This document shows, piece by piece, positions 1 through 8,239 of a DNA stretch of 64,000 nt; positions within the stretch are counted from its first letter, which is position 1; each line of letters begins with the position of its first letter. The notes below the pieces were generated by a model that saw only the letters and a list, made by a program, of their open reading frames with translations, did no database searches and was not told the origin of the DNA. This stretch comes from an uncultured Verrucomicrobiales bacterium (GTDB lineage: Bacteria > Verrucomicrobiota > Verrucomicrobiia > Verrucomicrobiales > DEV007): assembly GCA_938082635.1 (NCBI GenBank), contig CALLLI010000224.1, forward strand, positions 1-64,000. The letters run 5' to 3'. The translations under genes were made by a program, and so were the position numbers.

Positions 1-3000
1 ATTGTTGGTCTCTTCAGCGTTGACCCAGAAGGACCAGGTGAAGTCGGAGTCGAGCGTCTGAGCCGGGATCGTTCCAAGATCCAAGTGATCAGCTGCGGTA
101 GAGACATACTCCGCAGGCCAGTAGCCTTCCAGACCAGCAACCCCGCCGCCGCCGCCGACTGCGATTTGTTCGCCAAGGGAGGCTCCATTGAAGAGGAGAC
201 CCACTTCATCCGCAGACAGACCGCGATTCCAGACGGCCACGTCATCAATGAGACCATTCCAGGTGCGGCCGTTGCCACCACCGTCAGCGTTCTCACCAAT
301 CATCATTGGCCACTCGTTGCCCTGGGTGCCACCTGCTGGTGCTTCACCAGCAAGGACGCCGTCGAGGTAGTAGTTAGAGCCATCAGGGCCATTCGTGATG
401 ATCACGTGGTGAATCTCACCATCATTGACGTCTGGGCCATCAACCATGTCGGCACCAGAATTCGCATTATCGGCCTTTGGGCCTGCAACAGGTCCAAGAT
501 TATCGGCATCACCGCGGCGGTGGATGCGCCAGTTGCTGCCTTCACCCTTAGTGACCAGCGCCTGCCAGTTCTTGTCGAAGGAATCAACGCGGAACCAAGC
601 GGATACTGAGAAGTTGCCTTCAGGGAAGTCGAACAACTCTTCGTTCTCGACCGGCGTGATCACATGGTTTGCACCATTAAGATCAATGCCTTGACCAAAC
701 TGGCCGTCAGCGAACTCGATTGCATCACCAACTCCAGTTCCATGACTGTCACCTGCCTTATCTTCGAGATCTCCATCGAATGGGAAGTAAGCGATGAGGC
801 CTTGTCCCAAATCATCACCATCACCATCACCATCACCACTACTAGCAAAGATGCCCGTGATCTGGATATCAGTAAGCGCCTCGTTGTAGATCCGGACCTC
901 ATCGAGGTCACCACTGAAGAAGCGGGTATCACCGGCCCTCGTCGAGCCAATGGTGATCTCTGCATCGACAGCGACACCACCTTTATCGGCTGCTGTTTGC
1001 ACCTGGACACCATCAACAAAGATCGTTTGGACACCTTCGTCAAAACGGTAGGCCACATGCTGCCATTCCCCGACAACAACGCCGCCGCCAGTAATGTCAT
1101 TGCCCCAGTGACCAATGTGGAAGTTCGCATTGCGAATCCCATTGTGAAGGACGTTTTGGTCCTCAACCTGACCAAAGATCATGTTGTCGCCAGTCGTGTT
1201 CGCAGCGCGCACCCATGTCACCATGGTGTAGGGGCCTTCGGCAATATTCACACCGCCTGCGTCTAGCCCTGTTGCCACATACTGGGCATCAGCTCCGGCC
1301 GCAGCCTCTTCGACAAAGTTCAGGTAACCGCTGTCACCAACGCCGCCAGAGGCTACCCATGCCGCTCCGTGAGCATTTGTCAGCGTGCCGTTTCCACCCG
1401 TGCCGCCATTGCCGATGTCAGTACCACTGCCTTCGTTGAAGTCATACTGTACCACGGCATCTCCAATGCTATTGATGATGTCAGGGAGTGAAGGGCTATC
1501 CGCACTGGTGGGATCGTAGTTGCCCGCGACTTCAGCGCTGTCGCCAAATCCATCACCATCGGTATCCCCACTTAGAGGATTGGTCCCGCGGGTGACTTCG
1601 TCACCGTCTTCGAGGCCGTCGCCATCAGTATCCTTATCCTGAGGATCGGTCATGTACTGGCTGACTTCAAGCTTATCGGAAAGACCGTCGCCATCACTAT
1701 CTGGATCTTGTCCTGTCGCAAACGGATCGAGGACTCTGCCTGCGTTATCTATGAGGAAAGGAACCTCAACTTCAAGGTCGAGAACTCTTCCATAGAACTG
1801 AATGTCATCCAGGATGCCATCCAATCCGAGAGCACCGTCCGACCCAAAGGCTCCCGCGTAAAAGGTACCATCACTAGCCGGTACTGAGACATCATCACTG
1901 GCCACGACAACACCATCGAGAACAATGCTTCCCACCGTGCCATCATAAATCATGGCTACATGATAGGTCTCGCCTATCTCGATAGGCGCTCCAGAAGTGC
2001 TGAAGAGAATCGTTTCTTCACCAAACCAGTGGAGATCGCCGCCGGCAAGAAGCAGTGCCGCTTCTGGAGTGCCCTCTCCTTGACCAACCAAGGTACGCAA
2101 ATCAGCAGGCAAGCCTCCTAGTTCATTCGCTTGGAAGAAGAAGGAAACACTATACTGATCTAGCGGGAATCCCGCATCAAACCGCAACAGCCCGCCACCA
2201 TTGACTGTCATTGAGCTACCCTCACCAGAGAGAGCCGCCCCGCCCAAAGCGAGACTACCGCTATTCTCGTCATAGACGCCTAGATACTGATTCGTCGTCG
2301 TATCTGTCGCGTCCGTGCTTCCTGCGGCGTCGTCCAGTGGGTAGTGCGCGAGTGGTCCGTCAGGATTCGGAATCAGCGCAGTGATCGCCACGACGATCTC
2401 TTTATCATCGGCATCAGGATCATCCGTGGTGTAGGAGACGGTCGCGTTGAAGGTGCCCAGTTGTTGGAAACCATTGAAGGTCATGTTAATCGCGGCCTTA
2501 CTATCAGGTGCAATAGCGGTCGGAGAATCGACGATCGTGAAATGATCCATGTCTGCACCAGCAAGAGTCACATTGGAAATATTCAGTGGCTGGGTATCAC
2601 CCGTGTTGCTGATATTGATGGCAAAGGTTTGCTCCGTTTCGGGAAGCACGTCCCTTAGAGTGACCGACTTGGAGCCGGAAACATTCGGATCGGAAGGGTC
2701 TAGCGCTGTCTCAACGCTCGTGCCGTCGCCACCATTCCAGAGCTGCATGATCTCTTCGTCTGTAAGCGGGCGATTCCACATGGCGACATCATCAATGTTG
2801 CCTTCCCAGGTCCGATCGGCGGTATCCGGGTTCTGACCAATCATCATGGGCATGACATTGCCCTCTGGGTTAATGCTATCTTCGGTCGCATCCTCGGTGC
2901 CATTCACCCAGAAATCGTGTTTGTCATTCTCCCGATCACTGCGCAGCACGAGATGATACCACGTGCCATCGCCATCTTCATCTTCCGATGCTTCGATGAC

Positions 3001-3570
3001 TCCATCAGGGGTGTCCCCATTGCCGCCATTGCCGGTAAACGTTCTGCCATCACCACGACGATGGATACGCCATTGATTCTGCTCCCCTTTGGCAACAGGG
3101 GCCTGCCAGCCTTTGGTAAATTGATCGACCGTGACCCAGACGGAAACGGTAAAGCCTTTCAGATCGGGATCCTCTTCTTCGGGATCATCTTCATCCAAGT
3201 CATCAATCGCGCCGAAATCGAAGCGATCCTCCAACTCCAGAGGAGTCTCGACATAGAATGCGTCCGCGAATTTGCCGCTCTGGCCAAACTTTCCAGGAAC
3301 GTAAGTCGCCTCTGCCTCTTCCAAATCGGCGAGATTCTCGGGCATATTCTGATGGTTTCCTTCCCAGATCTTACCGACGCCATGGGCGGGTGGATCTGAT
3401 TCAGATTTGTCCTCTAAATCTCCGTCAAACGGCCAGTAGCCGACGAGGCCGTCCGAAAGTTCCGCTTGAGCTAGCGGGCCTGATAAGACCAGTGCAAAGC
3501 AGCCCAGTAGGAGCGCAAGCCCTGTTCTAGCCCGCTTGGCGAGCCAGTTAAAATCATGGGTGGTTTTCAT
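1..3570 (-). CDS. Large secreted multi-LamG (concanavalin A-like) protein with a calcium-binding TSP3-like DxDGD linker; 3' end runs off the left edge
   Basis: The reverse strand is open from ATG at 3570 to base 1: MKTTHDFNWLAKRARTGLALLLGCFALVLSGPLAQAELSDGLVGYWPFDGDLEDK... It contains repeated LamG motifs (WRIHRRGD, MMIGQN..RTWEGNIDDVAMWNR) and DPDSDGDGLSDKLEV..DTDGDGLEDGDEV. It is missing from the ORF track because the stop lies outside the window. Confidence 0.9.
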   Translation of the reverse strand, partial: MKTTHDFNWLAKRARTGLALLLGCFALVLSGPLAQAELSDGLVGYWPFDGDLEDKSESDPPAHGVGKIWEGNHQNMPENLADLEEAEATYVPGKFGQSGKFADAFYVETPLELEDRFDFGAIDDLDEDDPEEEDPDLKGFTVSVWVTVDQFTKGWQAPVAKGEQNQWRIHRRGDGRTFTGNGGNGDTPDGVIEASEDEDGDGTWYHLVLRSDRENDKHDFWVNGTEDATEDSINPEGNVMPMMIGQNPDTADRTWEGNIDDVAMWNRPLTDEEIMQLWNGGDGTSVETALDPSDPNVSGSKSVTLRDVLPETEQTFAINISNTGDTQPLNISNVTLAGADMDHFTIVDSPTAIAPDSKAAINMTFNGFQQLGTFNATVSYTTDDPDADDKEIVVAITALIPNPDGPLAHYPLDDAAGSTDATDTTTNQYLGVYDENSGSLALGGAALSGEGSSMTVNGGGLLRFDAGFPLDQYSVSFFFQANELGGLPADLRTLVGQGEGTPEAALLLAGGDLHWFGEETILFSTSGAPIEIGETYHVAMIYDGTVGSIVLDGVVVASDDVSVPASDGTFYAGAFGSDGALGLDGILDDIQFYGRVLDLEVEVPFLIDNAGRVLDPFATGQDPDSDGDGLSDKLEVSQYMTDPQDKDTDGDGLEDGDEVTRGTNPLSGDTDGDGFGDSAEVAGNYDPTSADSPSLPDIINSIGDAVVQYDFNEGSGTDIGNGGTGGNGTLTNAHGAAWVASGGVGDSGYLNFVEEAAAGADAQYVATGLDAGGVNIAEGPYTMVTWVRAANTTGDNMIFGQVEDQNVLHNGIRNANFHIGHWGNDITGGGVVVGEWQHVAYRFDEGVQTIFVDGVQVQTAADKGGVAVDAEITIGSTRAGDTRFFSGDLDEVRIYNEALTDIQITGIFASSGDGDGDGDDLGQGLIAYFPFDGDLEDKAGDSHGTGVGDAIEFADGQFGQGIDLNGANHVITPVENEELFDFPEGNFSVSAWFRVDSFDKNWQALVTKGEGSNWRIHRRGDADNLGPVAGPKADNANSGADMVDGPDVNDGEIHHVIITNGPDGSNYYLDGVLAGEAPAGGTQGNEWPMMIGENADGGGNGRTWNGLIDDVAVWNRGLSADEVGLLFNGASLGEQIAVGGGGGVAGLEGYWPAEYVSTAADHLDLGTIPAQTLDSDFTWSFWVNAEETNN
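810..846. repeat. Short hexanucleotide tandem repeat (CATCAC)n inside the LamG gene, encoding a GDGDGD linker
   Basis: atcatcaccatcaccatcaccatcaccact visible directly. Confidence 0.75.
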
Positions 3571-3795
3571 GAGTATGGTGATGGTTTGGGGTTTGTATCT
3601 TGTCACGAATGCAGGGACACGATGTCATGAACCTACCTGAAACGACAAGAAGACGTATTTACCAGTATAGCACTGCAGGGTGTAAAGGCTAAACGAGGCC
3701 ACTTACGAATACTTAACCGTTGGCTTTCCCTCCTTTCACGACGCAAGAAGCCGCGACGTTTCGCATTGCACCGCTTTTCATGCTAATCTATCACC

Positions 3796-6700
3796 GTGAG
3801 CATGAGAGAGAGTGCCTTGCCTACCTGGATAACACACACGGTTGCTTATCTCGCATTGGGGATGTTCTCTCAAGCCGCGCCACCCAAGGCCGCCACCGAA
3901 GCAACGGCTGTTCCCAGTCTAGAGAGTCGAAACTACGTTGGGCCTCTAGCAGATGCTTATTCACGTATTGATCCCACAAAGGATGGCTGGAACACCGAAG
4001 CGCTGAACGAAGCCGCCAACGAACAACTTCATCTGTTGCAGTCATGGCTCACGAACATGGAGTCCGACTCGCTGCCTGCTCTCAGCAAGAGCTTCCGATC
4101 CACACCCTGGATACCGAGCCAACTGAACACGGCATTCTCGGCAGATGGTCTCACCGTGAGACGATCAATCAACAAGGCGGCATCCAAGCCCAGCATGGGA
4201 TTGAAAGAAGCCGCGTCGACGCTCCAACAAGCGTTCGCTCCCGGCTCGCTCAAACTGAAATTCAAGCTTTACCGAGTCGACCCCAAACCAAACAGCACCC
4301 AGTTCCTAACCAATGTGCGGGTGGAAGCGAGCGGGCTAGCGCCTAACGTCACCCCTAAGGCTAAGAAACAGCATGTCGCAGAATGGAACCTCACTTGGGA
4401 ACGCAAGGGCCTGCAGGCTGAGCTGATGTCCATCACCCTCCAAGCGTTTGAGGAGGTCGTTCATGCTGGAGCAAGTGCCCCCGTTATCTTTGAAGACCGC
4501 ACCCACGCTGTGTTGGGGGACAATGCTTCCTACCACGAGCAACTTCTAAACAGCACCGATCATTGGCGCAGTCGAATCTCTCGCGACTTCGGAGTAGATG
4601 TCGTGGCCAATCACGGCATGGCTTTGGGCGACGTGAATGGAGATCTGCTAGACGACGTTTACTTGTGCATGCAAGGCGGTTTGCCAAACCGTCTCTATCT
4701 GCGTCAGTCTGATGGCACTCTCAAAGACGTCTCACGAGAAAGCGGTGCCGATTGGTTAGACTATTGTGCGAGTGCTCTCATTGTCGACTTCAACAACGAC
4801 GGACATCGTGACCTTGTGGTGGGTCAGGAGTGGCGGCTCCTATTTATGGAGAACGACGGCAAAGGTCATTTCGAACTCGCTTTCGGGCTGGGCACCATGG
4901 CTCAAACCTATTCACTCGCGGCCGCTGACTACGATGGTGATGGCGATGTGGATCTCTATGCCTGCGGCTACAATGGTTCGACCAACTCGATCCGACAGGG
5001 TGCCATGGGGGAGCCCATGCCCTATCATGATGCTCAGAACGGCGGCCCCAGCATGCTGCTAAGAAATGATGGCAACTGGGAATTCAACGAAGCCACCGCA
5101 GAGGTGGGGATGGACCACAACAACAACCGCTTCAGCTTCGCCGCCTCTTGGGAAGACTACGACAACGACGGCGATCTCGATCTCTACGTGGCCAACGACT
5201 ACGGACGCAACAACCTCTACCAACAGACTAATGGTCGCTTCATAGACATCGCTAGTGAGTTAGGCCTAGAAGACATGTCGTCTGGGATGTCTGTCGCCTG
5301 GGGAGACTACAATCGCGATGGCAACATGGATCTCTACGTCAGCAACATGTTCTCCGCAGCAGGCAATCGCATCACCTACCAACGGCAATTCCAAACCCAA
5401 ACCGACGACTCTATCCGCAAAGTGTTCCAGCGCCACGCTCGCGGAAATTCACTCTTCGAGAGCATCGGCAAAGGACAATTTCAGGATGTCAGCGTGGAAC
5501 GTGACGTGACCATGGGCCGCTGGGCTTGGGGCTCCGCCTTCATCGATGTGAACAATGATAGTTGGCAAGACCTCATTGTCGCAAACGGCTTTATTTCTGC
5601 CGAAGACACAGGCGACTTGTGAAGTGTCTACTGGCGGCAGGTCGTGTCGCAAAGCCCGATCAACGATTTTTCACCTGCGGCCACCGAGAGCTACCGCCAA
5701 GGCTGGCAAGCGCTCAACCGCCTCTTGCACGAGAATCGCTCCTTTAGCGGCAATGAACGTCACTGCGCCTACCTCAACACGGGCTCTGGCAAATTTGCCA
5801 ACATCTCGGCCGTGAGTGGACTCGATTTTGCAGAGGACGGACGCGCTATCGCCTCCGTGGACTGGGACTTCGATGGCGACCTCGATCTTTGGATCACCAA
5901 CCGCACCGCACCGCGCACGCGACTCATGCTCAATCAGAGCAAGACGACGAACAGCTTCCTCGCGGTCATGCTCCAAGGAAACGGAAAGACGACGAATCGC
6001 GATGCGATTGGTGCCCGTGTCGAGGTGCTAGGGCTGTCCAAACCCAGCATTCAGACGAAGCATGCAGGCGAGAGCTTCCTTTCCCAATCCAGTGGGTGGA
6101 CGCACTTCGGACTCGGCAAGCAACAAGGCAAAGTCAACGTGTTGGTGCGCTGGCCAAACGCCGCAGCAGAAACCTTCTCAGCGCTCGGAGTGAATGGCCG
6201 CTACATTCTCAAACAAGGAAGCGGACGAGCCCGATCATGGACCCCACCGAAGAACAGCGCAAACTTTGCCGACCACGCAGCCCCAATCGCCCCCCCCGAA
6301 TCTCCCAGCAACGTGCGCCTCGTCTTACCCGGGGGCCTACCACTGATCGAACTCACGCAGTGGCAAGTGGGCGGCAAGGAGTCAGAGCTCGTTTTAGAGA
6401 GCAAGCCGACGCTGATCAATGTGTGGGCGACCTGGTGCCAACCATGCCTTACAGAAATTGCAGCGTGGTCAAAAGAATCGAAGATCTTTGCCAAGGCAGG
6501 CCTCAACATCCTCACGCTCAATGCTGATGAAGACGACGCCGATCGAAAGAAGAGCGCTGCCGTGCTCAAACGATTAGGCTCTCCCTACCCAGCAGCCGTT
6601 GCCACAAACACAACCATTCGCCGGCTGGATATTCTTCAACGGGCAACCGTTGATCTCTGGGAGCCACTCCCCGTGCCTTCCAGCTTCCTAGTCGATTCTC

Positions 6701-7692
6701 AGGGTTATGTCAGGATCATCTACAAAGGTGGCGTCAGCTCTAGTCAACTGATCGAAGATCTCAAACTCTTGTCTGCCAAACCAGCAGCGTTGCGTGATGC
6801 GGCGGTCCCCTTCCCTGGCGTCTGGACCCATGAGCCTTCGGCACCAGAACCGCTTCGCGTCACCACTCAGTTCGTCGACCACAATCTTGTGCACGATGGC
6901 CTAGCCTATCTCCGGAAGGCCACAAAGCTTGATCAGAAGTATCGGCCCATGGAATTTGGCAACGTCGCTCTAGCAGACAGACTATTCGTCGCTGCAACTC
7001 TCCTCCGGGCGCAAGGCGAAATCAAAGGCGCCATCGGCACTTACGAAGATGCACTCAAACTCAATCCCAAAGATCAACGCATCCGGGGAGATCTCGCAGA
7101 TGTCTACGAGAAACAGGGACAGGCCGGAAAGGCAATTTTAGAACTGAAGCGATTGCTCGCCGCCAATCCAAGCGATCAGAAACTCGCAGCGAAACTCGCC
7201 GTGATGCTGGTGCGAACCAATCAGTCGAAAGACGCCCTGCGCTTGTTAGACCAACTCGTCAAATTACAACACACCAATGTGACCCTGCGATTCTATCACG
7301 GCGTGGCGCAACAGCGTACAGGCAATTTGTCAGGGGCTATCGCGAGCTTCGAACTCGCCCACAAGCTCGATCCCGCTCATGCCCTCTCCGCGAATAGCCT
7401 CGCCTGGATCGGTGCCACGCATCCCAAGGCGACGTATCGCAATGGCAAGCGCGCGGTGACCCTTGCCCAACAACTTTGCGAGCGCACTCAATACAGGAAT
7501 CCCTCCTTTCTCATGACGCTGGCTGCTGCTCAGGCTGAAGTCGGCACCTTTCCAGCGGCAGCCAAGACGATTCAGCAGGCGATCTCAGTCATGCGTGCGG
7601 CCAAACAGAAACGGCCTGCCGACGTGAAGGTACTCGAGACGCGCCTCAAGCTCTACCAGTCCGGGAAGCATTTCCGAGACGCCAGTCTCTAA
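3796..7692 (+). CDS. VCBS/FG-GAP repeat + UnbV/ASPIC (CRTAC1-like) + TlpA-like thioredoxin + TPR protein with an in-frame UGA at 5620-5622 (candidate selenoprotein; GTG start 3796 or ATG 3802)
   Basis: ORFs 3796..5622 and 5644..7692 are in the same frame, separated only by TGA at 5620. The VCBS repeats (DFNNDGHRDL, DYDGDGDVDL, DYDNDGDLDL, DYNRDGNMDL, DVNNDSWQDL) continue on the far side (DWDFDGDLDLWITNR). An ASPIC/UnbV segment (GARVEVLGL..HFGLG..VNVLVRWPN), TlpA (NVWATWCQPCLTEIAAW) and TPRs follow. Confidence 0.8.
5634..5650 (+). promoter_or_regulatory. Candidate bacterial SECIS apical hairpin: GCGGCA-GGUCG-UGUCGC
   Basis: 6-bp stem with one G-U wobble and a 5-nt loop starting GG. The loop begins 17 nt after the UGA at 5620-5622. 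Confidence 0.55.
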
Positions 7693-7837: not shown

Positions 7838-8239
7838 ATGAACCACGAAAGGCACGAAATACACGAAAAGTTGCTCTACAAAGATGAGGTTTACGCCATT
7901 CAAGGTGCCATCTTTGAAGTCTACAAGGAAATGGGCTGTGGTTATCTCGAAGCGGTTTATCAAGAGTGCTTGGAGAAAGAGCTTCGTCTAAGACACATTC
8001 CATTCGTGGCGCAGAGCGAACTCACACTATCTTATAAGGGAATGTTGCTGAATCAGATCTATAAGCCCGACATTGTCTGCCACAACCAAATCATACTCGA
8101 ACTGAAAGCAGTCAAGACCATTGCGCCCGAACATCAGGCTCAAATGTTAAACTACCTCAAAGCCACGGGCTTCAGACTTGGCCTCATCGTCAACTTCGGA
8201 CACCACCCAAAGGTAGAGATCCAAAGGTTCGCCCGGTAA
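7838..8239 (+). CDS. GxxExxY family protein
   Basis: MNHERHEIHEKLLYKDEVYAIQGAIFEVYKEMGCGYLEAVYQECLEKELRLRHIPF...YKPDIVCHNQIILELKAV matches the GxxExxY family pattern. Confidence 0.9.
   Translation: MNHERHEIHEKLLYKDEVYAIQGAIFEVYKEMGCGYLEAVYQECLEKELRLRHIPFVAQSELTLSYKGMLLNQIYKPDIVCHNQIILELKAVKTIAPEHQAQMLNYLKATGFRLGLIVNFGHHPKVEIQRFAR

Follow-up and report, generated by a model that had tools for sequence, protein, structure and literature searches.

A central question at this locus is whether a TGA that splits an otherwise continuous reading frame ends translation or encodes selenocysteine (Sec). The window – the whole stretch of 64,000 nucleotides analysed, from a contig of an uncultured Verrucomicrobiales bacterium – carries on its plus strand, at 3796..7692, a frame that closes with the TAA at 7690 and contains just one earlier stop, the TGA at 5620–5622. 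The initial annotation described two ORFs in one frame split only by this codon, with some 690 open codons after it; the first description is exact and the second agrees with our count of 689 (608 codons lie on the 5′ side). From this it proposed that the UGA is read as Sec, a proposal that conservation of the TGA, a covarying hairpin just behind it and the presence of selA, selB and selD in the genome all favour. Taking these together with synonymous-site constraint, purifying selection before and after the codon, co-occurrence with the Sec machinery and shared architecture, we regard it as almost certain, as far as sequence can tell, that UGA 5620 encodes Sec.

A conserved UGA in a conserved protein

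Read through the UGA, the gene encodes 1298 residues with Sec at position 609, although translation may actually begin at ATG 3802 instead of GTG 3796. A hydrophobic N-terminus read from the sequence, MRESALPTWITHTVAYLALGMFSQA (3802..3879, plus strand), is a probable export signal. Downstream on the same strand lie a UnbV/ASPIC domain (PF07593; residues 737–803; 6004..6204), a TlpA/ResA-like thioredoxin domain that matches AhpC-TSA and contains W-A-T-W-C-Q-P-C (6394..6714), and TPR repeats (residues about 1062–1200; 6979..7395). The VCBS repeats, UnbV, TlpA and TPR first read from the letters thus reappear as Pfam matches (FG-GAP, UnbV, AhpC-TSA/TlpA and TPR) that fall on both sides of the TGA, and full-length homologs and eight paralogs from the same genome share this architecture. 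On the minus strand, a divergent neighbouring frame of more than 1208 amino acids occupies positions 1–3624 and runs off the left edge of the window; it combines Asp-rich D-x-D-x-D-G repeats with repeated lectin-like stretches. Downstream of the Sec gene, at 7838–8239, is a small ORF of 133 amino acids, presumably a GxxExxY-type protein.

The UGA is a constant feature of the family. When 85,462 species genomes were scanned, 79 loci encoding relatives came to light, and the codon at the Sec column, read by tblastn, is TGA in 79/79. Addition of eight UnbV loci from the window's own genome brings the figure to 81/87, the six exceptions all being own-genome paralogs: one has TGC (Cys), and the others lack the motif or are gapped. 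Sec sits in the context D-L-U-S-[FV]-x-W-R-Q-V, and alignments of 47 and 59 rows show no variation in its D, L, U, S, W and R, so the impression that the UGA is flanked by a conserved motif was sound. A motif profile search of the own genome recovered nine family copies (contigs C224, C78, C28, C472, C351, C273 and C234, with two on C362), each with one TGA and all sharing the FG-GAP, UnbV and TlpA-like architecture; in two of the nine the residue after Sec is Gly or Met, not Ser. In 38 other genomes the same motif gave 248 matches (E up to 1e-10), from 1 to 25 per genome, and one TGA is present in every match, among the matches listed. A variable residue at this position, named at the outset as grounds for abandoning the Sec reading, is therefore not what the loci, the nine own genes and these matches hold; the alignment called for at the same time finds TGA in all 79 homolog loci and Cys in the closest non-Sec subfamily.

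The 79 TGA loci span Verrucomicrobiota, Planctomycetota, Lentisphaerota and Acidobacteriota. In a quick tree the nine own copies are scattered over many branches among genes of these four phyla, a distribution suggestive of ancient duplication, of transfer or of both, the UGA being retained throughout. Clusters of Sec genes are frequent (three within 12 kb at locus L068; two each at L064, L076 and, on the own contig C362, L136), and no relatives turned up when viral contigs were searched with the Sec motif. Locus L024, labelled Pseudomonadota, groups with near-identical Verrucomicrobiota sequences and probably owes its label to a mistake in binning or naming. The closest non-Sec subfamily is represented by four Cys homologs with D-Y-C-[ST]-x-x-W, one of them from the own genome; in the tree the Cys proteins fall outside, on very long branches. 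Related UnbV subfamilies (L176, L177, L179 and L180) keep W-R-H-D and show Asp or Gly in place of Sec.

Comparison of homologs gives dN/dS values of 0.08–0.15 before the UGA and 0.12–0.25 after it; the latter indicate that selection acts on the sequence 3′ of the UGA as protein, in the same frame. With purifying selection 3′ of the codon and dozens of independent genomes carrying this very TGA, the probability that we are dealing with a pseudogene or a sequencing error is negligible. As to error at TGA 5620 in particular, the independent genomes rule it out, which disposes of the suggestion that resequencing might remove the stop.

The hairpin behind the UGA

An 11-nt spacer encoding S-V-Y-W (5623..5633, plus strand) separates the UGA from a hairpin of bacterial SECIS type at 5634..5650 (plus strand), in which 5634–5639 pairs with 5645–5650 around the loop GGUCG at 5640–5644. 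This is the GCGGCA-GGUCG-UGUCGC structure originally reported, found where it was said to be, with its loop 17 nt from the UGA. A degenerate pattern of UGA plus hairpin has a single match in the window, where shuffles lead one to expect 0.01. Across the family the hairpin reads GCG[GA]CA-GGUCG-UGUCGC, with 97.2% of pair cells standard in 59 sequences and 95.5% of hairpin cells paired once all nine own copies are included. Compensatory changes occur at two to three of the six pairs (three pairs change on both sides when the own copies are counted), and covariation stands at 0.287 as against 0.139 when shuffled: none of 500 shuffles reaches 0.287, and the signal is lost when the pairing partner is slid. 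The own-genome copy on C234, GAGGCG-GGUCG-CGCCUC, differs from that of the window at three pairs (one of them single-sided) and yet all six remain paired.

The same stretch is frozen at synonymous sites. The Ser codon after the UGA is AGY in 85/87 genes (30 expected); codon Sec+7 is GTC in 78/86 (32 expected), Sec+8 is GTG in all 78 cases of Val (25 expected) and Sec+9 is TCG in 74/77 (17 expected). Third positions are free again from codon Sec+11 onward, such that frozen sites are limited to the stretch from UGA to hairpin, and where a homolog has Cys, Asp or Gly in place of Sec, the hairpin does not form in the same register. Covariation and synonymous-site constraint thus uphold the earlier reading of the hairpin as a SECIS element. 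On the other side of the UGA, the preceding Leu codon (5617–5619) is TTG in 74/87 genes, from which it seems that RNA-level constraint extends 5′ of the UGA.

The constancy of GTG at Sec+8 bears on a different explanation, namely that the UGA is a true stop and that a second cistron re-initiates at this codon. An ORF of 682 amino acids does begin at the Sec+8 GTG, and the 78/78 usage speaks for such a start; the position of the codon inside the hairpin explains it. Codons from the UGA to the GTG at 5644, which is the first possible downstream start, are conserved as protein, with S, W and R invariant. In 9/87 genes, moreover, Sec+8 is GCG, CTG, GGG, ATG or ACG – mostly unusable as starts – and re-initiation would sever the propeller and yield a TlpA part that lacks a signal. 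We judge this explanation very improbable and retain insertion of Sec at the UGA.

In its geometry the hairpin lies within the published bSECIS limits (a G in the first two loop bases, spacing of 16–37 nt, a stem of 4–16 bp and a loop of 3–9 nt; PMC13188914), having a spacing of 17 nt, a 6-bp stem and a 5-nt loop. The energy cut-off, a minimum free energy of at most −7.5 kcal/mol (PMC13188914), is a closer matter: the window's hairpin alone gives −7.3 kcal/mol, just above it, and −8.7 kcal/mol with three flanking bases on each side, while the median for the bare hairpin in 93 genes is −7.4 kcal/mol. Longer sequence windows around the hairpin can fold otherwise, and an Rfam search returned no bacterial SECIS match.

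Set beside the SECIS of E. coli fdhF and the bacterial consensus, the family hairpin is alike in following straight after the UGA, in its GGU-starting loop and in its 17-nt spacing; the GCAGGUC segment of the window is, we assume, a further resemblance to fdhF. It differs in being energetically borderline in isolation and nearly frozen in sequence over four phyla. A very divergent paralog at L067 (2727–2771) keeps the UGA and has a hairpin in shifted register, GCGUGC-GGUC-GUGCGC, nearer to a GGUC tetraloop.

Decoding machinery

The genome encodes selA (497 bits), selB (259 bits, with SelB winged-helix and beta-barrel domains) and selD, the last fused to a pyridine nucleotide-disulphide oxidoreductase; the fusion is a 751-amino-acid frame at locus L105 on own contig C160, with the oxidoreductase N-terminal to selD. 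Absence of the machinery had been named as fatal to the Sec reading. As regards selA, selB and selD it is present; tRNA-Sec was found in the own assembly (88.65% complete, 472 contigs) neither by Rfam, nor by Rfam at laxer limits, nor with the DNA of a relative's tRNA-Sec, and it is present in the closest relative. ARAGORN confirmed tRNA-Sec(UCA) in 17/17 loci inspected, including that relative (the genome of L034).

More broadly, selA occurs in 33/38 genomes that hold the family versus 25/386 that do not (Fisher p 4e-28, a value that ignores relatedness and MAG quality), tRNA-Sec at 60 bits or more in about 29/38 holders, and at least one of the two in 36/38. A sample of the phylum has selA in only 27/388 genomes, both holders included.

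The association with selA and tRNA-Sec also weighs against a reading in which UGA specifies a standard amino acid, through a suppressor tRNA or a reassigned code. The frame is indeed open under such codes. A reassigned codon should hardly be confined, as here, to one UGA in roughly 1300 codons at a single constant position; and TGA is the normal terminator in 25/80 family genes whose end is seen, from which we conclude that the code is not reassigned. This reading is more improbable still than re-initiation. With confidence only a shade below that for Sec itself, we hold that UGA 5620 is decoded by the ordinary SelD/SelA/SelB route in an exported CRTAC1-like propeller protein. SelD would supply selenophosphate, SelA would make Sec-tRNA, and SelB, docked on the hairpin immediately 3′ of the UGA, would direct insertion at 5620; the product, one of nine paralogs in this genome, would presumably be exported.

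A possible redox role and the place of the family

What Sec does in the protein is a further issue. A 1200-residue AlphaFold model for which 59 homologs were used (mean pLDDT 91.4, pTM 0.88) has structural matches to murine CRTAC1 (9etn, the best, E 2e-20), to TPR proteins and to ResA. In this predicted model Sec609 (model residue 570) occupies the first turn of a short helix, 569–576, that follows an FG-GAP strand; the D-L-U-S-x-x-W-R-x-V motif would thus place Sec at the start of a helix inserted beside an FG-GAP blade. Conservation of D, L, U, S, W and R at this helix start, along with the existence of a Cys subfamily, argues for a chemical role.

It is these features that count against the idea that Sec is inserted mainly as a selenium control, with low selenium giving a truncated N-terminal half and high selenium the full protein with TlpA and TPR. 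In its favour the UGA divides the N-terminal half from the UnbV-TlpA-TPR half in every copy, but truncation would fall inside the propeller. We find selenium control improbable, though less so than the other alternatives weighed above, and prefer a chemical role for Sec.

Candidates for partners of Sec609 can be named. Cys657 (E-R-x-C; codon 5764..5766, plus strand) is Cys in 92% of the family; Cys291 is conserved in 95% and Cys390 in 90%, while Cys881 and Cys884 of the TlpA domain are invariant in 59/59 Sec forms. A by-eye alignment of the Cys subfamily on S-W-N-G-F-E-H-N puts His or Phe at position 657, and no W-x-x-W-C-x-x-C motif was found among the non-Sec UnbV proteins checked, of which some are partial frames. 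It follows that Cys657 and the TlpA fusion accompany the Sec form. A tentative redox circuit, somewhat less likely than not, would make Sec609 the working selenol, with Cys657 possibly acting as resolving thiol and the fused TlpA C-x-x-C serving as the reductant that returns Sec609 to its reduced state, electrons passing from TlpA to Sec; the TPR part perhaps binds a partner.

The remark that this family was not an established selenoprotein family has found nothing to contradict it. A 2026 review catalogues 119 prokaryotic selenoprotein families and subfamilies (PMC13188914), none with FG-GAP, VCBS, UnbV or CRTAC1, and describes no comparable expansion of a single selenoprotein family. NCBIfam release 20 has no model for the family; the only match to one of its selenoprotein models, WAxxUGC_long, scores 16.9 bits against a cut-off of 300 and lies over the TlpA domain. 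The deep-Sep paper (2025), whose homology module discards candidates without known Sec or Cys homologs, does not mention VCBS or FG-GAP, nor are these domains named in the main text of a 2016 paper on selenoproteins of Planctomycetes. Literature that joins selenoprotein to UnbV/ASPIC or selenocysteine to FG-GAP gave no report of Sec, in a search outside which preprints and most subscription papers fall.

We think it likely that these proteins form an uncatalogued superfamily of CRTAC1-propeller selenoenzymes, with up to 25 Sec paralogs per genome, their own TlpA reductase, a range of at least four phyla and a large share of their hosts' selenoproteome; the largest bacterial selenoproteome found in the literature search numbers 46 genes, all families together (PMC12013277). 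The standard bacterial code splits each such gene at the UGA, and a family that numbers up to 25 members per genome among Verrucomicrobiota and Planctomycetota is consequently likely to be misannotated and the selenium need of its hosts overlooked. The Sec site, in turn, offers a concrete handle on the role of bacterial CRTAC1/UnbV proteins.

Comparison with known systems places the family at a junction. With the CRTAC1/UnbV-ASPIC proteins (PF07593) it shares the propeller and the UnbV fold (Foldseek to 9etn, E 2e-20, target TM 0.72; sequence match to the protein family, E 2e-21), whereas the bacterial members checked that lack Sec have no D-L-U-S-x-x-W-R, SECIS hairpin or TlpA WCxxC. With the catalogued selenoprotein families (PMC13188914) it shares a conserved UGA, a SECIS, Cys homologs and the Sec machinery. 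Its C-terminal half has, like the TlpA/ResA oxidoreductases, a ResA-like domain with an invariant C-x-x-C; in known TlpA selenoproteins, however, Sec lies in a U-G-C motif, whereas here it sits on the propeller, about 270 residues upstream. The majority of characterised selenoproteins are thioredoxin-like (PMC13188914): this family would place Sec on a CRTAC1-type propeller instead of a thioredoxin fold, with a reductase built in.
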